Assembly (NCBI GenBank): GCA_021159005.1
Contig: JAGGSN010000216.1
Span: forward strand, 1 to 49,424
Source: Candidatus Zixiibacteriota bacterium
GTDB taxonomy: Bacteria > Zixibacteria > MSB-5A5 > UBA10806 > 4484-95
DNA length: 49,424 nucleotides
Direction: 5' to 3'
Shown piece by piece: positions 2,781 to 22,029 of the stretch. The notes beneath the pieces were generated by a model, which worked only from the letters and a program-made list of their open reading frames with translations, was not told the origin of the DNA and did not search any database. Position 1 is the first letter of the stretch. Each line of letters begins with the position of its first letter. The translations under genes and the position numbers were made by a program.

Positions 2781-2809
2781 TTTACATTAACATCATATTT
2801 ACGTATACT
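2781..2809 (+). promoter_or_regulatory. Sigma-70-type promoter for the signalling-export operon
   Basis: TTTACA (2781-2786), a 17-base spacer and TATACT (2804-2809) form a good vegetative-type promoter. Transcription would begin near 2816, about 20 bases before the first gene at 2838, whose ribosome site TGAGG lies at 2824-2828. Confidence 0.55.
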
Positions 2810-2837: not shown

Positions 2838-5816
2838 ATGGCATTGAAAAAACCTTCTGAAATATTCATGAGTTTTGACGCCGATGAGAAATTGCTGGAG
2901 GATATCCGGCGTTCCATCGGAGATACTATTGCCGACCTAAACTTTTCCACTAAGGAAAAAAACAGCATCATGCTGGCTATTGAGGAGGCGTGCACAAATG
3001 TCATCCGTCACGCCTACCTTTACGGGCCGGGCACGATTCGCATCAGAGTAAGAATTTTCCCGAATAAAGTTGTATTCTCGATATTCGATAAAGGCAGAAA
3101 ATTTGATTTCGGACGCGCCGATTCCCCCGATCTTAATCGTTATGTGAAAACAGGCCGTAAAGGCGGCTTGGGGTTATACCTAATCCGCAAAATGATGGAT
3201 TCTGTCGATTATTACAGCCGTGATGGCGAAAACGAATTGCGGATGGTTAAAAACATTAAGCCTAAAAAACAGAGAAAATTGACTCCCAAAGGAGCTTCTA
3301 TACGTTTAAAATTCACAATGTGGGCATCGTTATTGGTGGTAGTTCTCGCCGGCGCAATAGGCTATTATTATGATCACAGAAACATCAATACGATTAAAGA
3401 CAGTTTTTTCTATGATGCTGTAAATTTTGCTCATATTACAGCTTTAAATGCCTCGGATAAAATAGTAGTCGGCAATGAGTTGGAATTGTCGGGTCTGGCT
3501 CGGTCCGGGCTTGATGGCAACCCTAATCTTAAATATATCGTTATAGTAGATAATAATAACCTGATTTGGGCGGATGTTTTAAACCCTCAAAATCTGTTAT
3601 CTCCCTACATATACCCAGCCGAATTAGACACAACTATTATCGATCAATTACAGGATATTAACAGTGATGAATTTGGTTCTATTTATCATATGATTACGGA
3701 GATAAAATTAAATGAACAGAAGTTGGGTGAGATACATCTTGGATTTTCTAAAACCGGATTGGCTGAACAACTTAAAGATTCGCGAAGAATAATACTATTC
3801 TTTGTCTTGTTAGGGACAATCATCGGCTTGGTTTCGGTATATATTCTCTCAAATTATTTCGTAAAACCAATTCAAAAGTTAACAGAGGGCGTTCTGAAAA
3901 TCGGGCAGGGCAATCTTGAGGAGTCTTTACCGGTTGAGGGCACGGATGAGTTTTCTGAGATTGCCCGCGCTTTTAATGAGATAACCACCAAGTTTAAAAA
4001 TGCCCAAGACAGCGTAGTCGAAAAAGAACTTTTGCAAAAAGAAATGCAGGTTGCCCAGGAAATTCAGCATGCCTTGTTACCCAACAGGTTTCCTGAAATA
4101 GAGGGTTATGAGCTGGCGGCGGTTTACCGCGCTGCCAAGGATGTCGGCGGCGATTATTTTGATTTCGTTTGGATTGATGAAGAGACTCTCGGTATAGCCG
4201 TTGCGGATGTTTCCGGCAAGGGCGTGCCCGGCTCTTTGGTTATGACAATGATTCGAACTGCTATCAGGCTGGAAGCCAGAGACAATAAATCGCCTGCGGA
4301 GATATTGGCAAAAGTAAATAATTTTGTGGCTGAGGATGTTAAAAAGGGAATGTTTATCACCATATTTTTTATAGTCCTCGATTCAAAAGAACGCCAGATT
4401 TCATTCGCCTCGGCGGGTCATAATCCGATGATTCTATATCGCAAAGACACCGAAAAATGCTACTTTCTTAACCCCAAAGGGATACCATTGGGCATGACAT
4501 TGCCTGATGACATCTCTTTCGGCGGCGCCTTGAAAACTGATAAGCTAAAGCTTAAAAAGGATGACATGCTGGTTATCTACACTGATGGCATCACCGAAGC
4601 GATGAACAACAGGTCGGAGCAATATGGCAACGACCGGCTGATTAATTTTATTAAAGAGAATTCATACTTTTCGCCCGAGGAATTTGTCCAAAAATTAGAT
4701 AAAGACCTTGTCCAATTCACCGGCAATGCACCCCAGAATGATGATATTACCTTAGTGGTAGTCAAAGAAAAGATAATGGCTGATGAGCTTGTGCTCGAAA
4801 AACGAAAACGCCTGCTTGATATGGTTGAGAATGAGGGGATATCGATAGAGGATGCCTGCGAGGAAATGGGAGTATCGCCATCAACGTTTTACAAGTATCG
4901 CAGAAGATATAGAGAACTTGGCGAAGCAGGCTTGCTGAATAAAAATTTAAGAGCGGATGCCGGCATAAAACAGCTTCCCTATACTGCTCGGAAAATAATA
5001 CTAGATATAGTTCGCGAATCTCCCTTGTTGGGTCCCGCCAGAATTCAGAAAAAAATGGCGGAGCTGGGGGAGAATTATACTGTTAAAAATATCTATGATG
5101 AATTAATCAATATGCGGCTGAATACAAAGAAACTTCGACTTGCCTATGTGGATAGAGTCGGTCAACTTAAATCAGAGCAGAAAGAACTTTTAGAAAAAGA
5201 AATTTTACGCGAAAAACAGAAGGATTTGGATAGAGATCAATATGCCGACGACTTGAAAATTAATATCGAGAAGAGGCAGGTTAAACAAATCACTAAAGAA
5301 ACAGGCAAAGTGTTTTCGCATTTGAAGCAATTGGGTCCCTCTGCTAAAAGCGGCAATCTCTATAAAGAAATTGCTAAAGAGCTTGAGAAATTGAATGGCG
5401 GCAAAGAAATTGCCGGGATGTTTACCTCAATGATAACCAAAATGGATGGAGATATACACAGTCTGGATAAAAGCGCTGATGGGTTAACGTCATTGAAAGC
5501 AGAATCTGCAGTTGAGGAATCAATAAAAAACGCTGATATTTCGGATAAAACGCCGATTAAGCTTGTAGAAGTTGCCCCGGTAAGCGATGTTAAAATCGAT
5601 ATCGACAGTAAAGCCATTAAGCCTGATGACAGCGATGATATTGAACCTGAACCGGAAGATTCCCAGATGGCAGAATCTAAACTCGTTGAAACATCGTCGG
5701 TAAATGACGATAAAACAGATGAGCATAAGAAAGACACCAAGAAAAAAACCAAGGATGATATTCTAAGCGATATGGCTGAATACGAAAAGAAACTGATGAA
5801 GAAATTTAATAAATAA
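2838..5816 (+). CDS. Single-chain GHKL kinase / HAMP / SpoIIE phosphatase / helix-turn-helix switch protein
   Basis: At 992 residues this joins activities usually split between proteins. Residues 10-130 form an RsbW/SpoIIAB-like GHKL ATPase (N-box EEACTNVIRHAY with N54, DKG near 84, GGLGLYL from 109). Helices at about 160-178 and 318-340 flank a probable extracytoplasmic sensor; HAMP follows to about 395. Residues 405-645 are a SpoIIE/PP2C phosphatase (GGDYFDF at 437, VADVSGKGVPGSL, NDDITLVVV). Residues 650-705 are a transposase-type helix-turn-helix (SIEDACEEMGVSPSTFYKYR) and 715-772 a winged-helix-like segment; an acidic/lysine-rich tail ends the protein. It likely phosphorylates and dephosphorylates a STAS partner, plausibly the product two genes downstream. 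Its stop overlaps the ParA start (TAATG). Confidence 0.9.
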   Translation: MALKKPSEIFMSFDADEKLLEDIRRSIGDTIADLNFSTKEKNSIMLAIEEACTNVIRHAYLYGPGTIRIRVRIFPNKVVFSIFDKGRKFDFGRADSPDLNRYVKTGRKGGLGLYLIRKMMDSVDYYSRDGENELRMVKNIKPKKQRKLTPKGASIRLKFTMWASLLVVVLAGAIGYYYDHRNINTIKDSFFYDAVNFAHITALNASDKIVVGNELELSGLARSGLDGNPNLKYIVIVDNNNLIWADVLNPQNLLSPYIYPAELDTTIIDQLQDINSDEFGSIYHMITEIKLNEQKLGEIHLGFSKTGLAEQLKDSRRIILFFVLLGTIIGLVSVYILSNYFVKPIQKLTEGVLKIGQGNLEESLPVEGTDEFSEIARAFNEITTKFKNAQDSVVEKELLQKEMQVAQEIQHALLPNRFPEIEGYELAAVYRAAKDVGGDYFDFVWIDEETLGIAVADVSGKGVPGSLVMTMIRTAIRLEARDNKSPAEILAKVNNFVAEDVKKGMFITIFFIVLDSKERQISFASAGHNPMILYRKDTEKCYFLNPKGIPLGMTLPDDISFGGALKTDKLKLKKDDMLVIYTDGITEAMNNRSEQYGNDRLINFIKENSYFSPEEFVQKLDKDLVQFTGNAPQNDDITLVVVKEKIMADELVLEKRKRLLDMVENEGISIEDACEEMGVSPSTFYKYRRRYRELGEAGLLNKNLRADAGIKQLPYTARKIILDIVRESPLLGPARIQKKMAELGENYTVKNIYDELINMRLNTKKLRLAYVDRVGQLKSEQKELLEKEILREKQKDLDRDQYADDLKINIEKRQVKQITKETGKVFSHLKQLGPSAKSGNLYKEIAKELEKLNGGKEIAGMFTSMITKMDGDIHSLDKSADGLTSLKAESAVEESIKNADISDKTPIKLVEVAPVSDVKIDIDSKAIKPDDSDDIEPEPEDSQMAESKLVETSSVNDDKTDEHKKDTKKKTKDDILSDMAEYEKKLMKKFNK

Positions 5817-6574
5817 TGCATAAAATAGCGATAATAGCCTCCAAGGGCGGAACCGGAAAAACGACTACGGCGATTAATTTTGCCCATGCTGTTGCCCTGA
5901 TGGGGCAAAAGGTATTGCTCGTTGACAGCGATTCGCAGGGGTCAGCCTCGCTGGCATTCGACCTTAATGGCGTTCAGGGGTTATCCGATCTGTTATTAAG
6001 CGGTCAGGTTGATATATATGATGTTCGGCCGAATCTTTATCTTGTGGGTTCGGGTAGAAGCGATATATTTCTGGTAGAGCGTTACTTAGCGCAGCAACTC
6101 GAGACTGATTACCCGCTGGCAAAGGCTCTTGAGCGATTTACTGGAGTAGATATTGTAATTTTAGATTGCTCTCCGTCAATAAATATAATAAATTCAAATG
6201 TATTGTGTTATGTTGATACGGTTTTAATCCCGGTATCTATGGATTATTTTGCTTTGGAAGGTGCCGGATTAACATTGAAACTGATTCGCGAAATGAGTAA
6301 AAATCTAGATAAAGAGATTCAGTTGCTTGGAATATTACCGACTTTTTTTGATGTAAGGACTAAAATCTCAAAAACGATATTAAATAATCTGAGAGAGAGG
6401 TATAAAAATAAAGTCTTTGATTCGACTATTCGCGTTAATACTCAAATTAAAGAGTCGCAAATGAACAATAAAACCATTTTTGAATATGCGCCATATTCAC
6501 ATGGAGCTTATGATTACTACCGCTTTGTAAAAGAAGCTCTAAAAAGATTAAGCAAGGTAGGAGTATATGAGTGA
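5816..6574 (+). CDS. ParA/MinD-family ATPase
   Basis: The 252-residue protein begins IAIIASKGGTGKTTTAINF, the deviant Walker A of ParA/MinD/Soj, with the Walker A' region LLVDSDSQGSASLAF and Walker B IVILDCSPS. Such ATPases form ATP-dependent dimers on DNA or membrane and position cargo. There is no ParB gene or visible parS cluster beside it, so chromosome segregation is unlikely. Its start overlaps the kinase-phosphatase stop by one base and its end overlaps the STAS gene by eight, implying translational coupling. I infer that it positions the signalling complex or the polysaccharide export machine, as ParA-like proteins do for chemotaxis arrays and cellulose synthases. Confidence 0.88.
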   Translation: MHKIAIIASKGGTGKTTTAINFAHAVALMGQKVLLVDSDSQGSASLAFDLNGVQGLSDLLLSGQVDIYDVRPNLYLVGSGRSDIFLVERYLAQQLETDYPLAKALERFTGVDIVILDCSPSINIINSNVLCYVDTVLIPVSMDYFALEGAGLTLKLIREMSKNLDKEIQLLGILPTFFDVRTKISKTILNNLRERYKNKVFDSTIRVNTQIKESQMNNKTIFEYAPYSHGAYDYYRFVKEALKRLSKVGVYE

Positions 6575-7388
6575 TATTAAAATTTCGGTAGAAACTACCC
6601 AGTATCCCGAAATCAAGGCAGAAATTACCGTTATTCGAGTGGATGGCGTTATTGATACTATGACCGCATCCGAACTGGAGAAGGTTACCATTTCATTGCT
6701 GGAGCAAAAAAGATACAATATAATTATCGACCTTGGCGGCGTGGATTATATCTCCTCGGCAGGCTGGGGTATCTTTATCTCAAACATCAGGGAAATCCGA
6801 CTTAATAATGGAGATATTAAACTTGCCCGTATGATTCCCAATGTGTATGAAATTTTTGAACTGCTTGAATTTGACAGCATATTGAAAGCCTTCGATAACA
6901 TTGCCAAAGCAAAGAGCGATTTTTTAGGCGGTACACCGACTGGCAGACAAAAAAATAAAAGTAAATCATCCGAAATGACCATAGTGCCTGAAGAAAAAAT
7001 CGACGACAATACTGAAAACAGACCTGCCAAAGACCCACAAATGTTGATGGGCGAAGTTGCCACTAAGGAAAAAATAAAAATTAAAGCTAGGACCAAGAAA
7101 AAATCTAATAATGTTTCGGAAAATAAAAACGAACAATTAAACTCAACCGACGCGGCACATCCCGTAAAAACTGAAAAATCTCACGATAAAACAAAAAACC
7201 TGAAGCAGGTGATTATGGATGTTGTGAGTAAGGACCCGTTTCTTAGCGTGGGCGAAATAAAGAAGACTATTGCTATAGATTTTCCCGGACTTGGATTTTT
7301 TCAAACCTGGTGGACATTAAGAAAACTGGAACTTGGTTCCAAGAAGAAAAGATTTAATTTTGCCAGAACCCGAAGATTTGCAAAATAG
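6567..7388 (+). CDS. STAS-domain (anti-anti-sigma-like) protein with C-terminal winged-helix-like module
   Basis: Residues 10-112 form a STAS domain of the SpoIIAA/RsbV type; IIIDLGGVDYISSAGWG carries the expected phospho-acceptor serine in the S63-S64-A-G motif. Residues 120-210 are a lysine-rich disordered linker. Residues 213-273 (VIMDVVSKDPFL, then TLRKLELGSKKKRFNFAR) resemble residues 719-772 of the kinase-phosphatase two genes upstream. The obvious role is the partner whose serine is phosphorylated by the GHKL domain and dephosphorylated by the SpoIIE domain. Whether its target is a sigma-factor system, ParA or the export apparatus is not shown; no sigma factor lies in the window. Confidence 0.85.
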   Translation: MSDIKISVETTQYPEIKAEITVIRVDGVIDTMTASELEKVTISLLEQKRYNIIIDLGGVDYISSAGWGIFISNIREIRLNNGDIKLARMIPNVYEIFELLEFDSILKAFDNIAKAKSDFLGGTPTGRQKNKSKSSEMTIVPEEKIDDNTENRPAKDPQMLMGEVATKEKIKIKARTKKKSNNVSENKNEQLNSTDAAHPVKTEKSHDKTKNLKQVIMDVVSKDPFLSVGEIKKTIAIDFPGLGFFQTWWTLRKLELGSKKKRFNFARTRRFAK

Positions 7389-7417
7389 ACAGTATTTTAT
7401 TAATTTGAAGTAAGTTT

Positions 7418-9235
7418 ATGGCGGCATTAGTTTTTATTCTATTTACTATTTTGTTGATTGCGGGAGCTGTAATAGCAATACTATCTTTTAAAATTCGCAA
7501 AAACCATCAGCACCGCCGCGAAATGACAATTGACTTGTATAAAATACGCTCCGATTTCTCCGTCAAGCAGGGAATATGTGATCTTTATCAGTCTGTTTTT
7601 GGGTCTTACCGTAAAACAATAAGAAAAAGCCCTGTCCTGCTGGCCGCTGAGGAATTCAAAAAGAAATTCAATCTTGGCAATTTTGTGGTGTTTTGTTCAG
7701 ACCGCAATATGTTTCTGCCAGTGATGGGAGTTGGCTTTAAACTGAGGTCAATTAAACCTGTTAAGGTCGATTTAATTAGGCAGGTGATTAGCGGAAATAA
7801 TGCTAATAGCCTGCGAGACGGCAGTTATTGGGGTTTACCGATAGATGTTGAGAAATTCAAGCAATTTTTTACTATAGCTAATATGCCAAATACGGCTAAA
7901 AAATTATTTATCTTTTATTATAATTTCAATTACAGCCAAATTTTATTTGTAGGAGAAGATTCACAGAGCGATCTTGCTAAATACTGTATCGATGTTGATT
8001 TTAACAGAGCAGTCTGGCCATTACTATATAATATTTGCCGCAATAATAGCAATATCAAGAAGCAAAATGAAAAAACCAAGGCGATGCAAGTCAAACTTGA
8101 TGAAACCAATACCAAACTCATTACATTATCGCGAAAATTAAAACATAAAATAATTGATTTGCATTCTTTTTATGAGATATCCAACAATATGTTTACGGTA
8201 TTTGATAAAAAGCGTTTAATAGAGATATTCGTCAATTCGGTAAGAGAAAACCTGGCGCCGCAGCAGGTAATGGTTTTACTGCGTGATAGCGATAATACAA
8301 ATTTATTTAAACCGGCTATGAATAACGGCCTCAATCAGAATATAAATCTAACCCTTGAACTTTCAAGGAATTCAGATATATATAAATTGTTGGCAACTAA
8401 TAATAAAGTTTTATTGCTGCCGATAGTTGGCTCCGGATTGCCAAAACCTGATAATTTTATCGAGTCAGCACTATCAAGCGGCTTTTCGGCGATGGAAAAA
8501 CTTACAATCACCGAGGATATTTATGGTATTGTTTTGATAGGACACAACAAGGAAGGAAAACCCTATGGCGAAACAGATCTCGAATTATTCTCGACCCTGA
8601 CAAATATGGCATCACTGGCTTTAGGAAATATTCATCAATATAAATTAATAGAAAAGATGTCGTATACCGATAGTATGACAAAGCTTTATAATTACCGGTA
8701 TTTTTATAAAAGGCTGAATGAGGAGATATTTAGAGGCAAGCGTTTTAACAGGATGTTGGCATTAGTAATATTTGATATTGATAATTTCAAAACGTTTAAT
8801 GATAACTATGGCCATCAGGCAGGCGATGAAATATTGAAAAATATAACCAAACTTGTAACCAGCAGTGTTAGAGCGATTGATGTGGTTAGCCGTTATGGCG
8901 GCGAGGAATTTTGTGTAATTATGCCTGATACGGGTTTTGCCAACAGCCTGATTTTTATTGAAAGGCTGCGTAAGAAAATCGAAAACCATAGATTTAAAAA
9001 CAAGTTTGTTAAAGACGAGTGCAATATCACAGTTTCGATTGGGGGGGCGATTTGCCCGGTTGATGCCCAGACGGCTGATCGTTTGATTTATTGCTCGGAT
9101 ATGGCTTTATTAAAGGCAAAAGCAGACGGACGGAATCGGTCTATGATGTTTAACAACTCACTTTTAGAGGACAAAAAATTAAATAGCAGTATACAGCAGC
9201 AATTAAAAGATATGAGGATTCATGAAGACTTGTAA
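7418..9235 (+). CDS. Membrane-anchored GAF-GGDEF diguanylate cyclase
   Basis: The protein has 605 residues, with one transmembrane helix at about 3-24, an N-terminal region I do not recognise, a short coiled segment near 215-245, a GAF-like region at about 245-415, and a GGDEF domain at about 430-590. The active-site loop is intact (GGEEF, 494-498). The inhibitory I-site RxxD (RAID, 485-488) sits five residues before it, so product feedback is expected. It should make cyclic di-GMP from two GTP near the inner membrane, a common activator of exopolysaccharide production. It overlaps the Wza-like export gene by 14 bases, tying the second messenger directly to export. Confidence 0.92.
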   Translation: MAALVFILFTILLIAGAVIAILSFKIRKNHQHRREMTIDLYKIRSDFSVKQGICDLYQSVFGSYRKTIRKSPVLLAAEEFKKKFNLGNFVVFCSDRNMFLPVMGVGFKLRSIKPVKVDLIRQVISGNNANSLRDGSYWGLPIDVEKFKQFFTIANMPNTAKKLFIFYYNFNYSQILFVGEDSQSDLAKYCIDVDFNRAVWPLLYNICRNNSNIKKQNEKTKAMQVKLDETNTKLITLSRKLKHKIIDLHSFYEISNNMFTVFDKKRLIEIFVNSVRENLAPQQVMVLLRDSDNTNLFKPAMNNGLNQNINLTLELSRNSDIYKLLATNNKVLLLPIVGSGLPKPDNFIESALSSGFSAMEKLTITEDIYGIVLIGHNKEGKPYGETDLELFSTLTNMASLALGNIHQYKLIEKMSYTDSMTKLYNYRYFYKRLNEEIFRGKRFNRMLALVIFDIDNFKTFNDNYGHQAGDEILKNITKLVTSSVRAIDVVSRYGGEEFCVIMPDTGFANSLIFIERLRKKIENHRFKNKFVKDECNITVSIGGAICPVDAQTADRLIYCSDMALLKAKADGRNRSMMFNNSLLEDKKLNSSIQQQLKDMRIHEDL

Positions 9236-10211
9236 TCTTATTGTTATTATCATAATGGGATTATGGATTACCTGTTTTGGGCAGGATGATTCATACAGAA
9301 TCGGCAAAAACGATGTTCTCAGCATCGGTTTTTGGCAGGAACCCGATCTAAACTCAGAGGTTAGAGTTGGCGAGGACAGCAAAATAACTCTTCCGGTCAT
9401 TGGCGACTTAACGGTCGAGGGACTAACAACCTCAAACCTGGCAAAGCTGATAGTCGAACAAATATCATTTTATAACCCGGGCATTTCTCAGGCAACAGTC
9501 GTGGTTATTGAGTATAACAGCCAGACAATAGCACTAACCGGCGCCGTGAATAATCCGGGTGAATATCATTTTGAGCGGATACCTAATTTGCTGGATGTAA
9601 TCAGGCAGGCGGGCGGAGCCTTGCCCGAGGCAGACCTGTCATCCGTTACTATCATTCGTCAGGAGAATGAGAAAATCAATTTAATCAAGGTTGATTTATT
9701 GAAGCATTTTCATAACGGCAGCTTAGCTGATTTGCCAAAACTTATGGCCAAGGATTTAATTGACGTTCCCCTTTCGCCATATGAAGGTGTTCAGGAATTA
9801 TATGGCCGGCAGGCTTTTAAAGGAAAGAATGTCTATTTTATTTATGGCGCGGTCAATGAACCCGGAGCTAAAACACTTTCCGAGGATATCGAATTAGTTG
9901 ATGCCATAGCCGCCGCCGGTGGAACAACTCCGGAAGCAGATATAAAAAATGTACGGGTTGTTTTAAAAGATGTCAGATATTCATCGGTATTGAATTTTGA
10001 TCTTCATAAATATACCGAGTCGGGTCGGCCTATGCGGTATCGCCTTCACCCGGAAGACACTATAATCATTCCCTTCCGACAGGAGGATACATTCTGGTCG
10101 AGACTGCCGGAAATAGTGGTGCCGGCTGTTGTTTCGGCTATTGTAACGACAGTAGCGACAACGATTTTGGTTAATGCTTTAGCCGATGACAATACTGCGG
10201 CGGCCGAGTAA
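9222..10211 (+). CDS. Wza-like outer-membrane polysaccharide export protein (SLBB domains)
   Basis: A signal sequence (hydrophobic residues 5-19) is followed by the Poly_export domain (YRIGKNDVLSIGFWQEPDLN, 26-100) and two SLBB segments (IALTGAVNNPGEYHF near 105; VYFIYGAVNEPGAKT near 205). A hydrophobic helix near the C-terminus (VVPAVVSAIVTTVATTILV) matches the outer-membrane barrel helix of Wza. Cys18 lacks a clear lipobox (WITC), so lipidation is uncertain; signal peptidase I cleavage after CFG is an alternative. It should form the periplasm-spanning export channel with the Wzz-like and BY-kinase proteins encoded next. Confidence 0.92.
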   Translation: MKTCNLIVIIIMGLWITCFGQDDSYRIGKNDVLSIGFWQEPDLNSEVRVGEDSKITLPVIGDLTVEGLTTSNLAKLIVEQISFYNPGISQATVVVIEYNSQTIALTGAVNNPGEYHFERIPNLLDVIRQAGGALPEADLSSVTIIRQENEKINLIKVDLLKHFHNGSLADLPKLMAKDLIDVPLSPYEGVQELYGRQAFKGKNVYFIYGAVNEPGAKTLSEDIELVDAIAAAGGTTPEADIKNVRVVLKDVRYSSVLNFDLHKYTESGRPMRYRLHPEDTIIIPFRQEDTFWSRLPEIVVPAVVSAIVTTVATTILVNALADDNTAAAE

Positions 10212-10216
10212 GAAAT

Positions 10217-11800
10217 ATGATAAAAACTGCAAAAGCATTTGATATTCGGGAAATCTGGCAGCTTCTTGTGAAATTTAAATGGTATTTGATTATACCTGTT
10301 ATAATTGTACCGTTAGCGGCGATATTAGCTACGTTTTTTATTCAACCGGTATATGAATCCTCAACGTCAATACTTATCGATGAATCGAATATCCTGCCTC
10401 CGTCTGTGCAAAGAGGGCTTGAAATGCAAGTTTACAGAAGGCTGAGTACGGCTGACATCAAAAATGCCATGTCGAATCAAATTAGATCGACTAAATATAT
10501 TAAGAGCCTTATTGCCAAACTTGATATACCGATTCCTGAGTGGATTAGAGCATCCGCCGCCAGCAGAGCGGCAAACTTGCCGGGAGTTTCGGCTGCGGAG
10601 CTTTCTGAAAACATTTTGGTTCAGACTATTCGAGAGCAAATCGGGGTGGAGATGTCTGGCTCGAATATTGTTACGATAACGGTACAATCAGCCTTGCCGG
10701 TTATGGCTCATAAAATGACATTGACATTAGCAGAGATATTTCTTGAGGAAAGCTTGGCCAAAGATTTAGCCGGCATCCAAGGCAGTATTTCCTTTACTGA
10801 GGAGCAGTTGGCTGTTTATCGCGAAAAATTGTATAATGCTCAGAACAAGTTAAAACGATTCAGACAAAATATGATTGTCGTTTCAGTTGATGAGGATACT
10901 ACGACTCTGAATCGCAACCTTAATGCAATATTTTCGGCTGTGGAGGCTATTGATATTGATATTTCTGAAGCGGAAAACGAGAAATCCGATATTGAATTAA
11001 TTTTGCGGCTTCGCGGGATTGAGCCTAATACTATTAATCTTCCTGAAAATATCAAGAAACAAAAAAATCAATTAATGAATACCATCCCCCGTCTGGCAGA
11101 GCTATTAGGACGCTATAGCTGGCGTGATGCCAAGGTTGTGGCATTGAATCAGGAAACAAGGGATATTATTACCTCAATCGGGTCTGAAATACAATTGTAT
11201 GTTGATAAAGCATATGTCGATATTGCGACTGAATCGGCCGCTGATTTATCGCGTTATCTAATTCTTGAAACTAATATAGAATTTATGCGAACGAAAATCT
11301 CTGCTATGCAGAAGAGTATCGGTAAAATAAAATCTCGATTATCCCGCGACCCGGCAGTTGAGGTTACTATGGATAGGCTTCAATCTGAGGTTGACCGCTA
11401 CCGGGAATTGTATCAGCTATTCGTGCAGCATTCACAGTATGCGGCAATTGACCAAAGCGCTAAGAAAGTTGAGGCGCAATCCAAATTTATGATTGTTCAG
11501 CCGGCGGTTATGCCGCTGGGTCCCATAAGCCCTAATCGCAGTCAGATGATACTTTTCGGAATAATACTGGGGATTATGATTGGCAGCGGCGCGATTCTTA
11601 TTCTGATGATGCTTGATGATTCGTTTAAGAAAGTTGAAGATGTCGAGGAATACCTCAATCTTTCGGTTATCGCAACTATTCCCCGTATTTCAACTCCTTA
11701 TACTATCAAGCGAAAAGATAGGGCATTGATATATATAGGCTTTGTCGTGAGTATTCTGTTGGCTGCCGCTATTATATATATGAAATTTAAGAATGGTTAG
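10217..11800 (+). CDS. Wzz/GumC-family polysaccharide co-polymerase
   Basis: The 527-residue inner-membrane protein has a Wzz domain: helix at about 20-42 followed by FFIQPVYESSTSILID, a long periplasmic coiled-coil region (about 180-430), then SPNRSQMILFGIILGIMIG and a second helix. It ends with a third hydrophobic helix (ALIYIGFVVSILLAAAIIY). There is no fused kinase; a separate BY-kinase is encoded two genes on, so this is a split PCP-2a arrangement like that of Gram-positive bacteria and exosortase-type EPS loci. It controls chain length and export. Five bases separate it from the Wza gene. Confidence 0.9.
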   Translation: MIKTAKAFDIREIWQLLVKFKWYLIIPVIIVPLAAILATFFIQPVYESSTSILIDESNILPPSVQRGLEMQVYRRLSTADIKNAMSNQIRSTKYIKSLIAKLDIPIPEWIRASAASRAANLPGVSAAELSENILVQTIREQIGVEMSGSNIVTITVQSALPVMAHKMTLTLAEIFLEESLAKDLAGIQGSISFTEEQLAVYREKLYNAQNKLKRFRQNMIVVSVDEDTTTLNRNLNAIFSAVEAIDIDISEAENEKSDIELILRLRGIEPNTINLPENIKKQKNQLMNTIPRLAELLGRYSWRDAKVVALNQETRDIITSIGSEIQLYVDKAYVDIATESAADLSRYLILETNIEFMRTKISAMQKSIGKIKSRLSRDPAVEVTMDRLQSEVDRYRELYQLFVQHSQYAAIDQSAKKVEAQSKFMIVQPAVMPLGPISPNRSQMILFGIILGIMIGSGAILILMMLDDSFKKVEDVEEYLNLSVIATIPRISTPYTIKRKDRALIYIGFVVSILLAAAIIYMKFKNG

Positions 11801-11806
11801 TGATTT

Positions 11807-12919
11807 ATGGAGAAGTTGATGTTAACAAGCAAGCTGAAAGGAATGGGCAAGGATTTTTTCCTGCAAACTTCCGGTGATCCTGAAACAGGGTTGGGTGTCA
11901 GTGTTTTGTTCAAGGATGGACATCCTATCGATAGCCTTGAGTTCAAGCTTCCGGAAAATAAAAATCAAGCAGCCAGCGCCGTTGATGAATATCACAGGAA
12001 TAGACTTGGAAAATTTTCCGAACTTAGCGAACTTTATGCTGAGTTAATCGATGAAAAAGAATCATCCATACTTGAAAAATTAGCCCTGTCGTTAGCTGAA
12101 CAGAAATTGTATAAGGAAGCGGCTGCTGTTTTCGAACGGGGCGTTAAGAATGCGCCCAAAAATTCGCGGCTGATGAATTATCTCGGCTTAACTTATATGG
12201 AACTTGAAAATTACAAGAAGTCCAATGAATGTTTCAACAAAGCGATCAAACTGAATCCCGATTTCCCTGATTATTATAATAATATGGGCAAAGCCTTGCT
12301 AAAAATGGGTGAATGTTTTAAGGCATCCAAAAGCTTTGAAAAAGCCATTGAACTGAACGTGTATTATGCAGAAGCTTATTATAACTTAGCTATGGCTATT
12401 ATACTTAATGGCATAAAAAGAGAAGACTACAACCTGGCTCAGGATTTGGAAGACAATGCCTTAAACTTGCTCGTTAAGGCAGTAGGGTTTGATCCGATGT
12501 TTAAAAACGAACATTATCAAAAAGGTTTAGAGGCTCTTAATAACAAAGACCTTGAAAATGCATTTATCGAACTTAGCAGGGGTTTCGATATAGTTACTAT
12601 TGGGAAATTTCCCAAGAGAACATACGATTTTCAACTTGAATATCTTTTCAGAAATGAACTTTTACGCGAGGATATTGTTGTAAAACATATAAAAAGCATA
12701 AAGAAACTTCTTGAAATACATCCCAATTATCCCGACCTGTATAATGAGTTGGGGATGAGTTATACGGTACTAACTCAATTCCATAGCGATCGCGCTATTG
12801 AAGCTTTCGAGAGAGCTTTAAAGCTTAACCCCGACTATAGAATAGCTTTGAAAAACCTGAAGCTGATTCAAAACGAACTTAAGGGATTGAAAACGCTATT
12901 AAAGGCAATATTAAAATGA
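11807..12919 (+). CDS. TPR-repeat protein of the EPS operon
   Basis: At 370 residues, it has an N-terminal part (1-85) without a recognised domain, then at least three TPR units at about 88-200 (AAVFERGVKNAPKNSRLMNY, CFNKAIKLNPDFPDYYNNMG, SFEKAIELNVYYAEAYYNLA) and one more near 310-355 (AIEAFERALKLNPDYRIAL). There is no signal peptide, so it is probably cytoplasmic. TPR proteins are common in EPS operons as scaffolds. It lies 6 bases after wzz and overlaps the BY-kinase start by four bases (ATGA), which suggests a complex with one of them. Confidence 0.82.
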   Translation: MEKLMLTSKLKGMGKDFFLQTSGDPETGLGVSVLFKDGHPIDSLEFKLPENKNQAASAVDEYHRNRLGKFSELSELYAELIDEKESSILEKLALSLAEQKLYKEAAAVFERGVKNAPKNSRLMNYLGLTYMELENYKKSNECFNKAIKLNPDFPDYYNNMGKALLKMGECFKASKSFEKAIELNVYYAEAYYNLAMAIILNGIKREDYNLAQDLEDNALNLLVKAVGFDPMFKNEHYQKGLEALNNKDLENAFIELSRGFDIVTIGKFPKRTYDFQLEYLFRNELLREDIVVKHIKSIKKLLEIHPNYPDLYNELGMSYTVLTQFHSDRAIEAFERALKLNPDYRIALKNLKLIQNELKGLKTLLKAILK

Positions 12920-13623
12920 AAAAAGAATCAATCATTAATTATTATGATAGAGAAACAATAGAAGGAACAGAGTTCAGGAGACTGTATTCGAATATAAAAA
13001 GCTCTTATGAGGGCGATTTAAAATCGGTAATGATTACATCATCGACAGTGGAGGAAGGCAAATCTACAATAGCGTCTTTTCTTTCCATATCGATTGCCGA
13101 GACATCGGGCGAAAAAATCCTGCTTTTAGATACTGATCTGCGCCGCCCTATGGTGCACAACTTTTTTAAGCTGCCAAAAGAAAATGGCTTAGCAGATATC
13201 CTTGATAAAAAATGCTCTATCAAACAAGCGATAAAACAAACCTCGATTCCAGATTTAAGCATAATTACCGCAGGCAAAGTTGATAGAGATCCGACGCTTT
13301 TATTGAATCAAAACAGACTCAGAGAAGTTTTTGAGGAATTGAAATTTTATTTTGATTTAATAATTGTAGATGTACCTCCGATAATCCCTGTTTCAGATCC
13401 GATAATAATAGCCAGCGAAGTCGATAGCGTATTATTGGTTATTCGTGTTGGCATGACACCCAAGGAAGTAGTGAAAAGAGCCGCTAATTTTCTTAAAAAT
13501 TCCAAAATAAATATAGCTGGAGTTATCCTTAATAATTTTGAAGAAGTCTTGCCATATTATTATAGATCAAGGTATTACTCGAATAAATACTATAATAAAA
13601 CCCGCCCTAAAATTAAAAATTAA
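12916..13623 (+). CDS. CpsD/CapB-like bacterial tyrosine kinase (BY-kinase)
   Basis: The 235-residue P-loop enzyme has Walker A STVEEGKST (43-51), Walker A' LLLDTDLRRP (69-78), Walker B LIIVDVPP (near 150) and a C-terminal tyrosine cluster (PYYYRSRYYSNKYYNK), the autophosphorylated tail of BY-kinases. It pairs with the separate Wzz-like membrane activator two genes upstream. Cycles of tail phosphorylation are known to control chain length and export. It is the last gene of the operon starting at 2838. Confidence 0.93.
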   Translation: MKKESIINYYDRETIEGTEFRRLYSNIKSSYEGDLKSVMITSSTVEEGKSTIASFLSISIAETSGEKILLLDTDLRRPMVHNFFKLPKENGLADILDKKCSIKQAIKQTSIPDLSIITAGKVDRDPTLLLNQNRLREVFEELKFYFDLIIVDVPPIIPVSDPIIIASEVDSVLLVIRVGMTPKEVVKRAANFLKNSKINIAGVILNNFEEVLPYYYRSRYYSNKYYNKTRPKIKN

Positions 13624-13898: not shown

Positions 13899-14792
13899 AT
13901 GAGATATCAAAGTCCAATAGCAAATCCGCTTTCTCAATACTGGGAAGAAGGAACTGTTATCGGCAGCCAGAGCAAGCTCTGGAATGATGTTGCCATAAGG
14001 ATAAAGTTTTTCAGCGGTGAATATTTTTTCGCAAATTTGGTTTTATTGGTTAATGCCATAAGCAATGTTTTGGCGATAAGGCCTATACTGAGCGTCGTGT
14101 CGAGAGTATATAGTATTTATGGTATTAAATGGGGATTAAAGCGATTGATTGATATTACTGGCGCCTTATTTGGCATTATTATATCGCTACCGTTTTATAT
14201 TGTGGTGTCGATATTGATAAAAATAGATTCTCCTGGCCCCGTGTTCTTTTGTCAGCCAAGGATTGGCAAAAACCGCCGCCGCAATAATCGTCGCCTGATG
14301 AGTGTTGATGGCTGCCCTGAAAATCGCGCTGATGACCGCCGAAAGGCACCGGGATATGGCAAGGTTTTCAAGGTAATCAAATTCCGCACTATGCGTCAGG
14401 ATGCTGAAAAACATACCGGACCGGTTTTAGCCACTCAGAATGATCCCAGAATCACTCGGCTGGGAAGATTTTTAAGAGCCACGCGTATCGATGAATTGCC
14501 CCAGTTTTTCAATATTTTAAAAGGCGATATGAGCTTAGTTGGTCCTCGTCCGGAAAGGGAATTCTTTATTAGTAAGCTCAGAAATATCATAAACAATTAT
14601 GAGCATAGGCTGCTGGTGAAACCTGGTTTAACCGGTTTGGCTCAGGTTGAGCATAAATATGATGAATCTGTTGATGACACCAAGGTTAAGGTTAAATACG
14701 ATATCGATTACATCCAGAATTTGAATATCATTCGGGATATTAAAATTATGTTCAAGACAATTTATGTTGTTTTGGCGGCTAAGGGGATGTAA
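13899..14792 (+). CDS. Initiating polyprenyl-phosphate phosphoglycosyltransferase (WbaP/PglC type)
   Basis: The 297-residue protein starts the repeat unit by moving a sugar phosphate onto undecaprenyl phosphate at the inner membrane. A short N-terminal part (1-80) precedes the monotopic domain: KRLIDITGALFGIIIS with the re-entrant helix, SPGPVFFCQPRIG, FKVIKFRTM, the catalytic Asp-Glu pair in RIDELPQ, and LVGPRPE and KPGLTGLAQV. It lacks the long multi-helix N-terminus of full WbaP. A strong AGGAG (13889-13893) sets the start. The gene forms its own unit between a sigma-54 promoter and a strong terminator; the donor sugar cannot be told. Confidence 0.92.
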   Translation: MRYQSPIANPLSQYWEEGTVIGSQSKLWNDVAIRIKFFSGEYFFANLVLLVNAISNVLAIRPILSVVSRVYSIYGIKWGLKRLIDITGALFGIIISLPFYIVVSILIKIDSPGPVFFCQPRIGKNRRRNNRRLMSVDGCPENRADDRRKAPGYGKVFKVIKFRTMRQDAEKHTGPVLATQNDPRITRLGRFLRATRIDELPQFFNILKGDMSLVGPRPEREFFISKLRNIINNYEHRLLVKPGLTGLAQVEHKYDESVDDTKVKVKYDIDYIQNLNIIRDIKIMFKTIYVVLAAKGM

Positions 14793-14830: not shown

Positions 14831-14864
14831 AAGGGAAAGGTTTTGGCCTTTCCCTTTTTATTTT
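14831..14864 (+). terminator. Rho-independent terminator
   Basis: AAGGGAAAGG (14831-14840) pairs perfectly with CCTTTCCCTT (14847-14856) over a 6-base loop and is followed by TTTTATTTT. It closes the phosphoglycosyltransferase transcript 38 bases after the stop. Confidence 0.85.
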
Positions 14865-15852: not shown

Positions 15853-16950
15853 ATGCTTGCAGGCAAAACAATATTAGTAACCGGCGGTACGGGAACATTT
15901 GGCAAGAATTTTATTAAAACGATTTTTGAAAAATACCCAAAGGTTAAAAAGGTAGTTGTTTTTTCACGAGACGAATTGAAACAGTTTGAAATGCGTGATC
16001 AATACCCCGAATCGAAGTATCCGCAGATGAGGTTTTTTATCGGTGATGTGCGCGATAAAAACCGCATCAACAGAGCCTTGGAGGGAATTGACTATGTTGT
16101 GCATGCGGCCGCTTTGAAACAGGTGCCGGCCTGCGAATATAATCCCTTTGAGGCAATTAAAACAAATGTGTTGGGTGCTCAAAACATCATAGAAGCCTGC
16201 ATAGATAGAAACGTAAAAAGAGTAGTAGCTTTAAGCACTGATAAAGCGGCGGCGCCAATTAATCTTTATGGTGCTACCAAGCTTTGTTCGGATAAGCTGT
16301 TTGTTTCAGCCAATAATTACAGAGGCAACAGAGACATCAGATTTTCGGTGGTTCGCTATGGCAATGTTATGGGAAGCCGGGGAAGTGTGATTCCATTTTT
16401 CCTGAAAAAACGCAAAGAAAAAGTTTTGCCGATAACCGACACCAGGATGACCCGTTTTAATATAACATTGAAACAAAGCGTGGAATTAGTTTTGTTTGCT
16501 ATGGCTAACATGTGGGGCGGCGAAATATTTGTGCCAAAGATTCCCAGCTATCGCATTCTCGATCTTCTCGAAGCAATTGCTCCGGGTTGTGAGTACAAAA
16601 TCATCGGTATTCGTCCCGGCGAAAAGCTTCATGAACAGATGATTACCGAAACCGATGCTATTAACTCTATCGAATTTAAGAATTATTTCGTTATACAGCC
16701 GTCAATGAATCTCTGGGATGTTGGCAAATACATGGAAACATTCGAGGGAAGCCGCTGCGCTAATGGTTATTCCTATGGCAGCGGAACGAATACCGAATGG
16801 CTGACAGTTGATGAATTGCGCAGCTTGATTCGCGAGCAAGTTGATTCGCAGTTTTCGGTTGAAGATATGCCAACAGTTTTAGAAAAGCGTCGAAAATCAA
16901 AGATGAAGATTGTCCGCCATGAGCTAAAGGATATTTTAGCCGGCAGTTAA
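15853..16950 (+). CDS. pseB: UDP-GlcNAc 4,6-dehydratase (inverting), PseB
   Basis: This 365-residue short-chain dehydrogenase converts UDP-GlcNAc to UDP-2-acetamido-2,6-dideoxy-L-arabino-hexos-4-ulose, the first step of pseudaminic acid synthesis. Visible are the cofactor motif GGTGTFG (11-17), SRDELKQFEMRDQYP, FIGDVRDKNR, HAAALKQVP, the active-site D130-K131 and the Tyr139/Lys143 pair (NLYGATK), RYGNVMGSRGSV, and GIRPGEKLHE, all close to Campylobacter/Helicobacter PseB (FlaA1). About 30 extra basic residues at the C-terminus exceed the usual length. It opens a run of same-strand genes reaching 41472, and AGGAG at 15840-15844 sets the start. Confidence 0.93.
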   Translation: MLAGKTILVTGGTGTFGKNFIKTIFEKYPKVKKVVVFSRDELKQFEMRDQYPESKYPQMRFFIGDVRDKNRINRALEGIDYVVHAAALKQVPACEYNPFEAIKTNVLGAQNIIEACIDRNVKRVVALSTDKAAAPINLYGATKLCSDKLFVSANNYRGNRDIRFSVVRYGNVMGSRGSVIPFFLKKRKEKVLPITDTRMTRFNITLKQSVELVLFAMANMWGGEIFVPKIPSYRILDLLEAIAPGCEYKIIGIRPGEKLHEQMITETDAINSIEFKNYFVIQPSMNLWDVGKYMETFEGSRCANGYSYGSGTNTEWLTVDELRSLIREQVDSQFSVEDMPTVLEKRRKSKMKIVRHELKDILAGS

Positions 16951-17012
16951 TTATAGTTGGAAGTATCATTATCGTTTTTATGAATCAAATTATTATGGCA
17001 GTATTTTAATTT

Positions 17013-18248
17013 ATGTCAACATCAACCCAAAGTCATACAGGGTTTTTGCCGTATGGGAAACAGCATGTTTCTGAGGCTGATATTGAAGCCGTTATAAAGG
17101 TTTTAAAATCCGACTGGCTGACCCAGGGACCCGGAGTTCCGGCATTTGAGAAAATGCTGACTGAAAAAGTAGGGGCATCGCATACTGCGGTTTGTTCCAG
17201 CGGCACAGCTGCCCTGCATCTAACGATGCTTGCCTTAGGGATAGGTCCCGGTGATGAGATAGCGGTTTCCTCAAATACATTTCTTGCCTCGGCAAACTGC
17301 GCGAGATTTGTTGGAGCGGAAGTACGTTTTATTGATATTAATCCCTATAACGGCTTGATTGACCTTAAGTCGCTTAGCAAGGTTCTGCAAGCCGATGATA
17401 AGCATAAAATAAAAGCCATCATACCTGTTCATTTTGCCGGTCAGCCAGTAGAACTTACAGCTATACATTCTCTTGCTGTAGAGCATAGCGCCAAAGTTGT
17501 CGAGGATGCCTGCCATGCTGTCGGAGCTTGGTATGAACACGATGGTCATAGGCATAATATAGGCGGATGTTCTCATAGCGATATGACGGTATTCTCGTTC
17601 CATCCGGTTAAGCATGTGGCTATGGGCGAGGGCGGTGCCGTTACTACAAACCAGCCCGAGTTGATAAAAAGACTTCAATTGTTTCGCAATCATGGTCTGC
17701 AGAAAGAGGATTTCACTAACAATGATATGGCGCGGTCGCCGGATGGCAAAGTCAATCCCTGGTATTATGAAATGCATGAGCTGGGCTATAACTACCGTCT
17801 TACAGACATTCAGGCGGCGCTGGGATTAAGCCAGTTGGCGCGGCTTAGCTGGTCGTTAGAACGGCGGAATAAACTGGCCGATTGCTATCGAGAAGTGATT
17901 GACGGAACTTTCCCGGATGGCGGTATCCGTCCGCTTGATGTGCGCGATTCTGTCTTTCATGCATATCATTTGTTTACAGTGCTTATAGACTTTAACAGGT
18001 TCGGGGTATCGCGCGCGGATGTTATGAATCGTCTGCGTAAAGCAGGCATCGGAACGCAGGTGCATTATATTCCGGTTCCGCTTCAGCCATATTATCGAAA
18101 ACGCTATGGAATCAAACCGGGCGATTTTCCGGGAGCGGAAAAATACTATGCCCGGGCGCTTAGTTTGCCTATGTATCCTGATTTAACAGGAGCTGATTGC
18201 GAATGGGTGATTGGTTCGCTGAAAACTATCATGGGAACAGCTTTATGA
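17013..18248 (+). CDS. pseC: UDP-4-amino-4,6-dideoxy-AltNAc aminotransferase, PseC
   Basis: The 411-residue DegT/DnrJ/EryC1 PLP enzyme adds the 4-amino group to the PseB product using glutamate. Motifs include LPYGKQHVSEADIEAVIKVL and SDWLTQGP at the start, CSSGTAALHL, EDACHAVGA, and the PLP lysine K200 in FSFHPVKHVAMGEGGA. The final segment FPGAEKYYARALSLPMYP is typical of PseC. It lies 62 bases after pseB; its stop overlaps the next start as ATGA. Confidence 0.93.
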   Translation: MSTSTQSHTGFLPYGKQHVSEADIEAVIKVLKSDWLTQGPGVPAFEKMLTEKVGASHTAVCSSGTAALHLTMLALGIGPGDEIAVSSNTFLASANCARFVGAEVRFIDINPYNGLIDLKSLSKVLQADDKHKIKAIIPVHFAGQPVELTAIHSLAVEHSAKVVEDACHAVGAWYEHDGHRHNIGGCSHSDMTVFSFHPVKHVAMGEGGAVTTNQPELIKRLQLFRNHGLQKEDFTNNDMARSPDGKVNPWYYEMHELGYNYRLTDIQAALGLSQLARLSWSLERRNKLADCYREVIDGTFPDGGIRPLDVRDSVFHAYHLFTVLIDFNRFGVSRADVMNRLRKAGIGTQVHYIPVPLQPYYRKRYGIKPGDFPGAEKYYARALSLPMYPDLTGADCEWVIGSLKTIMGTAL

Positions 18249-18982
18249 AAACCGTTATTATAGTGCAGGCAAGGATGACCTCATCCCGTCTGCCCGGCAA
18301 AGTGCTCAAGCGTATAATGGGCAAATGTTTGCTGGAGTATCAGATAGAACGTCTTCGGAGAGTGTCGCTTGCCGATGAAACAGTTATTGCAACAACAATA
18401 AATGACGCCGATATCCCGATAGTGGAACTGTGTCAACAATTGACGATACCATTTTTCCGCGGTTCGGAGAATGATGTGCTGGCAAGATATTATAATGCGG
18501 CGCTTAGATATAACGCGGATATAATAGCGCGCGTAACTTCAGATTGCCCCCTTATTGACCCAATTGTTATCGATAAGGTAATTGGTTTCTTTAAAGATAA
18601 TTATAACATTTATGATTATGTTTCCAATGTGCAGGCAAGAACTTATCCGCGCGGCATGGACTGCGAGGTATTTTCATCGTCTATACTAAATGAAATATTT
18701 CATAAAGCATCTAAACATTCAGAACGCGAACATGTAACCCCCTATATATACAATCATCCTGAGCATTTTAGGATGGGTTCTGTAGCGTACTCTGAAGACC
18801 AGAGCCATCACCGCTGGACAGTAGATACACAAGAGGATTTTATTCTAATTAAAAACATACTTGAGAACATTTATCCCAAAAAACCAGCATTTACATTTGA
18901 GGATTGTTTGCTGTTGATTGGAGAGCATCCGGAATGGGCAAAGATAAACGCGCATATCGAACAAAGGAAGTGTGGAGTATGA
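18245..18982 (+). CDS. spsF: SpsF-family cytidylyltransferase, probable PseF role
   Basis: The 245-residue enzyme has the SpsF signature QARMTSSRLPGKVL, then FRGSENDVLARYY and TSDCPLIDP. It occupies the position of pseF (CMP-pseudaminic acid synthetase) in the canonical B-C-F-G-H-I order, but SpsF is a different branch from classical PseF, which carries PARGGSKRIP. By context it should activate pseudaminic acid with CTP. The start is taken at the ATG overlapping the pseC stop (ATGA), not at the upstream in-frame start 48 bases earlier. A paralogue is encoded at 24205. Confidence 0.88.
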   Translation: MKTVIIVQARMTSSRLPGKVLKRIMGKCLLEYQIERLRRVSLADETVIATTINDADIPIVELCQQLTIPFFRGSENDVLARYYNAALRYNADIIARVTSDCPLIDPIVIDKVIGFFKDNYNIYDYVSNVQARTYPRGMDCEVFSSSILNEIFHKASKHSEREHVTPYIYNHPEHFRMGSVAYSEDQSHHRWTVDTQEDFILIKNILENIYPKKPAFTFEDCLLLIGEHPEWAKINAHIEQRKCGV

Positions 18983-20091: not shown

Positions 20092-20641
20092 TGATTTTAA
20101 CCTGCGAAAAATAAATGAGCAGGACTTGGAAACTTTATTGCGTTGGCGTAACTCCGACCGTGTGCGAACAAACATGTACACCGACCATATTATCTCTATG
20201 AAAGAACATAGAGCCTGGTTTAATCGAATCAAGGATGAGTCGACTGCATTGTATCTTATTTTTGAACATCTGGAGCATCCAATAGGGTTTGTCTATTTTA
20301 CTCAGATAGATATTACAATAAGTAACTGCATGTGGGGTTTCTATCTTGGCGAACGAAACGTACCGAACAAAAGCGGCACGATTATGGGCTATATGTCATT
20401 GAATCATATTTTTGATGTAAACAAACTTCAAAGAGTAAATGGCGAAGTTCTTGCTTTCAATAAACCAAGTCAAAAATTTTTTCAGCGATTGGGATTTTCT
20501 GAAGTTGGTAGATTGAAAAATCATGCAATGAAAAACGATAAGTTAACGGATGTTGTGCAATTTTCTATTACCGCCGATGAATGGCGCAGAATTGGCAGAA
20601 CGTCAGTGGAAAATTTGTTTCGGGATACTGTTAGAAGGTAA
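20078..20641 (+). CDS. pseH: UDP-4-amino-sugar N-acetyltransferase, PseH
   Basis: The 187-residue GNAT enzyme is expected to acetylate the 4-amino group of the PseC product with acetyl-CoA. The N-terminus (LRKINEQDLETLLRWRNSD, then HRAWFNRI) and GEVLAFNKPSQKFFQRLGF are typical of PseH. It follows PseG with overlap. Since the next two genes look like an N-formyltransferase and a deacetylase, the final acyl group may differ from acetyl. Confidence 0.9.
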   Translation: MLDINDFNLRKINEQDLETLLRWRNSDRVRTNMYTDHIISMKEHRAWFNRIKDESTALYLIFEHLEHPIGFVYFTQIDITISNCMWGFYLGERNVPNKSGTIMGYMSLNHIFDVNKLQRVNGEVLAFNKPSQKFFQRLGFSEVGRLKNHAMKNDKLTDVVQFSITADEWRRIGRTSVENLFRDTVRR

Positions 20642-20644
20642 GTA

Positions 20645-22013: not shown

Positions 22014-22029
22014 ATTATGGAGATTTGTT

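Follow-up and report, generated by a model that had tools for sequence, protein, structure and literature searches.

A contig from Candidatus Zixiibacteriota bacterium (assembly GCA_021159005.1, contig JAGGSN010000216.1) places genes for a partner-switching signalling system, a ParA ATPase and a diguanylate cyclase directly in front of the genes for a polysaccharide export machine, which raises the question of whether, and by what route, the switch controls export. The window analysed here is this entire contig of 49,424 bp, one of the 241 that make up the 3.66 Mb assembly. All results were obtained by sequence computation, largely on fragmented metagenome assemblies, with open reading frames (ORFs) called by a simple longest-ORF rule, and divergence can mimic gene absence. 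Eight tightly packed ORFs are present on the + strand at 2838-13623, as an earlier reading made from the sequence alone (the sequence-only reading) had described, and every junction is either an overlap or a gap of no more than 29 bases. The answer that we tentatively favour is that a membrane-anchored partner switch sets the output of cyclic di-GMP (c-di-GMP) and is co-expressed with an XrtA-like exopolysaccharide (EPS) exporter. The expected domain assignments for the eight genes were confirmed by a Pfam scan of the window, and the features are as follows.

2838..5816, + strand: bifunctional membrane receptor, the SpoIIE gene (Pfam, NCBIfam, conserved residues)
4797..5129, + strand: double helix-turn-helix (HTH) of the receptor, residues 654-764 (AlphaFold2 model, fold search, hhalign)
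5816..6574, + strand: orphan ParA, Soj-like, with no adjoining ParB (Pfam AAA_31, 6.8e-33)
6567..7388, + strand: STAS switch protein with a basic HTH-like C-terminal domain (Pfam STAS, 2.3e-17)
7418..9235, + strand: diguanylate cyclase (Pfam GGDEF, 7.6e-42, and a weak GAF_3)
9222..10211, + strand: Wza-type polysaccharide export protein (Pfam Poly_export and SLBB)
10217..11800, + strand: chain-length determinant of the Wzz/polysaccharide co-polymerase (PCP) type (Pfam Wzz and GNVR)
11807..12919, + strand: TPR protein (Pfam TPR)
12916..13623, + strand: bacterial tyrosine kinase (BY-kinase), an EPS tyrosine autokinase with a Tyr-rich C terminus (NCBIfam eps_fam, 1.1e-48, above the cut-off)

As judged from the coordinates, SpoIIE and ParA overlap by 1 base and ParA and STAS by 8, and a gap of 29 bases separates STAS from GGDEF. 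The 14-base overlap of the cyclase gene with wza, to which the sequence-only reading had drawn attention, was confirmed; it is followed by gaps of 5 bases (Wza/Wzz) and 6 bases (Wzz/TPR) and by an overlap of 4 bases between the TPR and BY-kinase genes.

The receptor consists of an RsbW/SpoIIAB-type HATPase domain (residues 14-138), a membrane/periplasmic part, a HAMP domain (337-381) and a SpoIIE-type PP2C phosphatase (448-643), followed by a double HTH of the IS481-transposase type (654-764) and a long tail that ends ...DMAEYEKKLMKKFNK. The Pfam matches were HATPase_c_2 (1.5e-24), HAMP, SpoIIE (1.2e-50) and HTH_23/28/29, and the NCBIfam matches SiaA (1.8e-24), RsbW (2e-19) and IS481 (1.5e-15) were all under the curated cut-offs. 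The kinase N-box residues E50 and N54 and the metal-binding Asp residues of the PP2C domain (D439, D457, D583, D635 and D636) are invariant in 23 receptor homologues. The switch protein comprises a STAS domain (residues 16-115), a linker and the basic HTH-like C-terminal domain (209-273). S63 and S64 are invariant in 30 homologues, and Ser64, in the motif YISSAG, is the likely phospho-acceptor. The best PDB match to the AlphaFold2 (AF2) model was SpoIIAA, and RsbV was also matched. With its RsbW-like kinase with an intact N-box, the Asp residues of the PP2C phosphatase and the STAS serine, the cluster has the parts by which a partner switch is predicted. The cyclase includes an N-terminal hydrophobic stretch, a weak GAF domain, a GGDEF domain with the motif GGEEF, and an RxxD inhibitory site (I-site); R485, D488, G494, G495, E497 and F498, which make up the active site and the I-site, are invariant in 16 homologues.

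Under the reading that we favour, the periplasmic part of the receptor would sense an envelope signal, possibly supplied by a surface protein and an outer-membrane barrel that are encoded upstream in most relatives. Via the HAMP domain, the receptor would toggle its own RsbW-like kinase against its PP2C phosphatase and thereby set the phosphorylation of STAS at Ser64. The neighbouring cyclase would be bound and activated by STAS in one of its phosphorylation states, probably, by analogy with SiaC, the unphosphorylated state, and c-di-GMP, limited by the I-site, would favour polysaccharide export and restrain motility. The signal, the direction of phosphotransfer and the contact between STAS and cyclase are what we infer here. 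The HTH modules of the receptor and STAS, together with ParA where it is present, may further anchor the complex on DNA, which would serve transcriptional feedback, positioning or both, and in one family of relatives (f9), slippage on a run of ten A residues (A10) would determine how much STAS is made with its HTH-like domain relative to STAS lacking it.

This reading is supported by the linkage of the genes, by their conserved order and overlaps, by the invariant residues of the kinase, phosphatase, STAS and GGDEF domains, and by the fold match to SpoIIAA and RsbV. It is supported also by the best curated match of the phosphatase half, SiaA, which belongs to a partner switch acting on a cyclase, where SiaC controls SiaD (PMC7647112, PMC8457831). 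However, the SiaA model scores only 86 bits against the receptor phosphatase, far under its cut-off of 700, and the operon was not taken as a sia orthologue. Further support comes from the small c-di-GMP inventory of the source genome, which encodes two full-length GGDEF proteins, two weaker matches and two PilZ proteins, and from the persistence of the STAS-GGDEF pair in three genomes in which a linked Wza was not found (G024, where the two are not adjacent, G029 and G049). Because the genome has just two full-length GGDEF proteins, the cyclase of the cluster would be a major source of c-di-GMP. Low numbers are general among the relatives, 57 of 58 genomes having 1-4 GGDEF proteins at E 1e-20 or better. 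A decision between polysaccharide and motility is plausible as the outcome. One of the two PilZ proteins, at L172 (8077-8844), lies inside a flagellar cluster with FlhB, FlhA, FlhF, FlhG and FliA, names that were read from the sequences. Text searches of the open literature for Zixibacteria together with c-di-GMP found no papers, and those for Zixibacteria with exopolysaccharide found nothing relevant by title.

Named related records come chiefly from Zixibacteria (Zixiibacteriota/GN15), followed by KSB1 and Calditrichota. When 40 loci of the same class were searched using the window proteins as queries, the recurring order was SpoIIE-(ParA)-STAS-GGDEF-Wza-(Wzz)-TPR-BY-kinase-(sugar transferase). 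A linked Wza is present in 24 of the 29 informative Zixibacteria genomes, and is on the SpoIIE strand in 21, where a locus was informative if its downstream DNA extended to 9 kb or more or if Wza was found, a definition slightly biased to positives as short contigs count only with Wza. The overlaps are often conserved, that of 14 bases between GGDEF and Wza recurring in both other genomes of family f1 that have both genes. Pairwise distances for six products from 31 loci correlate (r 0.49-0.91, with no correction for the species tree), and the unit appears to have been mostly inherited together. The proposal of the sequence-only reading that signalling and export genes form a unit is therefore borne out within Zixibacteria.

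Several observations weigh against a switch that serves polysaccharide export through c-di-GMP. The cluster itself does not include a c-di-GMP receptor. In family f12 (L042, L043, L044 and L056), the export genes are downstream of GGDEF on the opposite strand, so that adjacency is conserved more widely than co-transcription, and transcription with the export genes, as the sequence-only reading had it, is not supported there. The f11 locus has kept STAS and has no GGDEF, and Wza is not linked in parts of f5 and f9 or in f11, f13 and f15. Outside Zixibacteria, the core consists of a large surface protein, a barrel-plus-TPR protein, SpoIIE and STAS, and none of the 20 KSB1/Calditrichota-type loci with at least 5 kb after STAS had a match to GGDEF or Wza. 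The expectation that the signalling genes would stay with wza in relatives is thus upheld in most Zixibacteria but fails outside the phylum. As the core is found without Wza in KSB1/Calditrichota and in some Zixibacteria, the switch would be older and not dedicated to polysaccharide, and as the core there has no GGDEF, STAS would need another partner in KSB1/Calditrichota.

Most Zixibacteria have two genes of surface-protein and barrel sizes just upstream of the cluster, and those scanned (L034) are of these kinds. The receptor-STAS core is therefore probably ancestral, with GGDEF and the export genes joined in Zixibacteria and ParA inserted in a subset of families, put at six in all. In the source genome, a surface-protein/barrel pair is found on another contig (L161, G000:C175, 2-6966), the barrel being 57% identical. 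A second module on the - strand of a further contig (L162, G000:C18, 5032-16001) includes a surface protein, a barrel/TPR protein, a SpoIIE phosphatase without a kinase, a separate STAS+HATPase protein, a STAS protein, and a PAS histidine kinase with a receiver in place of the cyclase.

It is possible that the system is mainly a transcriptional switch, with STAS a phosphorylation-controlled DNA-binding protein, the receptor a membrane-tethered regulator and the cyclase co-expressed, and with this operon and others as targets. The evidence for this lies in the C-terminal domain of STAS, which the sequence-only reading overlooked together with its relationship to the receptor HTH. It is a second, four-helix domain, confidently modelled by AF2, and in 25 STAS homologues its net charge is +5 to +12 (basic in 25/25) as compared with -13 to -5 for the core. 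When profiles were aligned with hhalign, it matched the second of the two receptor HTHs (E 2.8e-7, probability 93%), control pairs remaining at noise, and by this comparison the two are homologous. DNA binding by the HTH modules is likely, and by sequence (IS481, 1.5e-15) the double HTH of the receptor is similar to domains with which transposases bind DNA. The C-terminal domain is also present in STAS proteins of KSB1/Calditrichota, where there is no linked cyclase, which suggests that its older role needs none. On the other side, the double HTH of the receptor, modelled by AF2 with a predicted local distance difference test (pLDDT) score of 87, gave only weak fold matches to DNA-binding proteins (TnsB and Pax paired domains as the best PDB matches, E 0.017-0.6), the first HTH is not basic in the window protein, and HTH folds also mediate protein contacts. 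Long STAS proteins without an adjoining SpoIIE gene were seen at L099, L108 and L122, preceded by a protein of ~445-450 amino acids, which at L099 is a sigma-54 type response regulator. A plasmid search with the STAS protein found generic STAS similarity only.

The importance of the domain is further illustrated by family f9 (L061, L062, L064, L067, L070, L175-L204 and others), in which 43 of 43 distinct genes have a run of A9-A11 where the STAS core gives way to the HTH-like domain. The STAS proteins of ~130 amino acids in f9 were at first candidates for HTH-less forms, and this was dropped as the downstream DNA encodes the domain in another frame behind the run. Of 104 distinct STAS genes in which the domain was found, 43 have A9 or longer, 37 of them exactly A10. 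Of these 43 genes, 27 carry the domain out of frame and 16 in frame, and an out-of-frame domain occurs in none of the 61 genes without the run. A one-base change in the run swaps products of ~130-190 and ~220-270 amino acids in all 30 genes examined, +1 being commonest in out-of-frame genes. Runs of A or T of at least 9 are otherwise rare, with 3 across 464 kb of sequence from these loci; a second set, which shares some genomes with the first, had none in 97.6 kb, with the STAS run present at 30/30 loci at a GC content of up to 67%. A tree of the 43 run-bearing proteins requires at least 8 frame changes by parsimony, of which at least 2 are forced by well-supported branches. Assembly error is unlikely to be the source of the frame changes, since the run is present in 43/43 genes whether in frame or out.

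Conservation of the run but not of the frame is what would be expected were both STAS forms made by slippage, and programmed slippage in f9, yielding STAS with and without the HTH domain, is probable; a -1 ribosomal shift would serve equally. Retention of the domain even out of frame argues that it is under selection and that its dosage seems to matter, which favours the transcriptional switch. Slippage has been demonstrated experimentally in Thermus thermophilus dnaX (A9) and Citrobacter rodentium tssM (A11) (PMC1088944, PMC4256274), where, as here in the f9 relatives only, an A9 or A11 run gives two length variants of one protein. Unlike those cases, slippage in f9 is deduced from conservation, the product is a partner-switch protein, and the native frame differs among genomes. 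The window STAS gene has the domain in frame, its A-runs do not exceed A7, and it has no slippery run; hence the f9 run bears on the importance of the domain and not on the window feature.

Somewhat unlikely is a DNA-tethered partner switch, in which the shared transposase-type HTH would make STAS a phospho-regulated DNA-binding protein, RNA-polymerase or ribosome slippage would set the HTH ratio in f9, and a dedicated ParA would position the complex in other families.

ParA-led positioning, whereby a nucleoid ParA would place the receptor or the export machine via the receptor tail, is compatible with the other models and, as an account of the cluster, is unlikely. The ParA of the window has the deviant Walker A motif KGGTGKT, and its closest solved structure is the segregation protein 1wcv (1.1e-36). 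Among relatives, ParA is found only in families f1, f2, f6, f7 and f12, always between receptor and STAS, and in most of these families the receptor tail carries a motif like DxxEYxKKL or xYxxKL with a charged end that is not present in long-tailed receptors of families without ParA. We hypothesise that this motif is a ParA-contact peptide. It is, however, missing from two of three f12 receptors despite ParA, and most families have no ParA, which would make positioning an add-on. Elsewhere, orphan ParAs serve to position chemoreceptors, and BcsQ has a role in cellulose production (PMC9178275), so that a ParA-superfamily ATPase in a polysaccharide secretion operon has a parallel. Unlike BcsQ, which has RGGVGTT, the protein here is closest to Soj, and assignment as BcsQ was rejected (73 bits against a cut-off of 158). 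Membership of a parABS system was also rejected, as there is no adjacent ParB and two stronger AAA_31 genes are located elsewhere in the genome.

Co-transcription without direct regulation, in which the signalling genes act on cell-wide targets and export is linked by a shared condition of need, would suit the core without export genes in KSB1/Calditrichota, the families f11, f13 and f15 and the strand arrangement of f12, but is quite unlikely given that order and overlaps have long been conserved across families. Chance adjacency was rejected, as order, strand and overlaps recur in many families.

The sequence-only reading had stated that no system with all these parts is described, and for the full set this stands as far as the open literature was searched, a body that leaves out most subscription papers, although a partner switch with a cyclase and a partner switch in a polysaccharide locus are both known. 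Each pairing has precedent. The SiaABCD system of Pseudomonas aeruginosa (PMC7647112, PMC8457831) likewise has a HAMP/PP2C membrane phosphatase, a kinase, a switch protein and a diguanylate cyclase in one operon, but there the kinase and phosphatase are two proteins, SiaB and SiaA, the phosphorylation site of SiaC is Thr68, and siaABCD as described includes no HTH domain, ParA or export gene. SypE of the Vibrio fischeri syp locus (PMC3610818, PMC8256260) has an N-terminal serine kinase and a C-terminal phosphatase in one protein and acts on SypA, a STAS protein whose gene belongs to a polysaccharide locus; SypE is a response regulator with a central receiver rather than a HAMP membrane receptor, SypA is STAS-only with an unknown target, and the pair has no cyclase. 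In HsbR-HsbA-HsbD of P. aeruginosa (PMC5085249), an anti-sigma-antagonist-type switch protein also regulates a diguanylate cyclase, but the HptB cascade feeds Hsb, there is no linkage to polysaccharide export, and no HTH or ParA is described. Here, unlike in the known biofilm switches, sensor and switch protein have a DNA-binding-like domain in common, and a review of partner switching describes no DNA-binding domains on STAS-only proteins. Distinctive of the present system are a membrane protein that fuses kinase and phosphatase and bears a transposase-type HTH, a basic domain homologous to this HTH on STAS, the putative f9 slippage site, the ParA insert and the class-wide linkage to an exporter.

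Two interpretations offered in the sequence-only reading are not retained. Nothing shows direct action on secretion, and the nearest characterised systems, Sia and Hsb, work through a diguanylate cyclase. The term 'stress-type' switching is an analogy, as the cluster has no sigma factor.

The export genes appear XrtA-like, though the XrtA system itself is unproven. The best NCBIfam matches of Wza and Wzz are the XrtA/PEP-CTERM export protein (8.6e-30) and the XrtA chain-length determinant (1.5e-53), both under the cut-off, and for the BY-kinase the XrtA model is second to the general eps_fam, which is the only match of the export proteins to clear its cut-off; no EPS protein in the window reaches an XrtA equivalog cut-off. 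The f12 locus L042 has an XrtA-system deacetylase above the cut-off (338.7 vs 276.2). A full-length exosortase, EpsH (1.7e-66), is encoded outside the cluster at G000:C77 and is followed by a DUF3485 gene. When the 29 informative genomes are divided by the presence of a full-length exosortase, 20 of 21 that have one show linked wza, as compared with 4 of 8 that do not (Fisher p = 0.013), an association that is suggestive and that shared ancestry could produce. The described XrtA/PEP-CTERM system (PMC1569441) similarly includes Wza, Wzz, a tyrosine kinase, a TPR protein and a sugar transferase, with exosortase and DUF3485 elsewhere in the genome here. Its described regulators are PrsK and PrsR, a histidine kinase and a sigma-54 response regulator, whereas here a partner switch and cyclase are linked and the exosortase gene lies apart from them. 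At its N terminus, the TPR protein has a conserved domain of ~80 amino acids (window 11807-12050) with no Pfam match, and weak relatives (E ~1e-3) of this domain are separate proteins near the f11 locus (L059:8858-9457 and L060:1931-2536). C-terminal TPR repeats occur in the KSB1-type SpoIIE proteins L107 and L109, which hints at a possible place on the signalling side for the TPR protein in the Zixibacteria cluster.

The limits of the unit were assessed from the following flanking features.

2781..2809, + strand: promoter-like TTTACA-17-TATACT preceding the first ORF
13899..14792, + strand: initiating sugar-phosphate transferase, Bac_transf (Pfam, 1e-63)
14831..14856, + strand: strong terminator-like hairpin with an 11-bp stem and a T-rich tail, after Bac_transf

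Bac_transf is a ninth gene that starts 275 bases beyond the BY-kinase gene, occupies the same place in f1, f2 and one f5 genome, and is the probable last gene of the unit. Of the terminator-like sites on the + strand in the vicinity of the genes, this hairpin alone is strong, and promoter-like matches are not clearly above shuffles (58 vs 49 +/- 6.5). Further downstream, a pseudaminic acid pathway is encoded at 15853-23082, with PseB, PseC, PseG, PseH and PseI each above the curated cut-off; the product of 18197-18982 reads as a cytidylyltransferase and had no match at the limit used. A phasin/polyhydroxybutyrate (PHB)-regulator-like gene and a UbiB-like gene are upstream of the receptor.

If confirmed, the favoured reading would explain how the decision to make surface polysaccharide is taken in a deep, mostly uncultured phylum that has very few c-di-GMP enzymes, and the HTH modules would add a physical DNA link to partner switching. 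The small c-di-GMP inventory, of two full-length GGDEF and two PilZ proteins, makes the pathway tractable, and the A10 run of f9 gives a prediction that is checkable with existing metatranscriptomes. Should the switch be DNA-tethered, one envelope signal would control c-di-GMP synthesis, transcription and polysaccharide export together.

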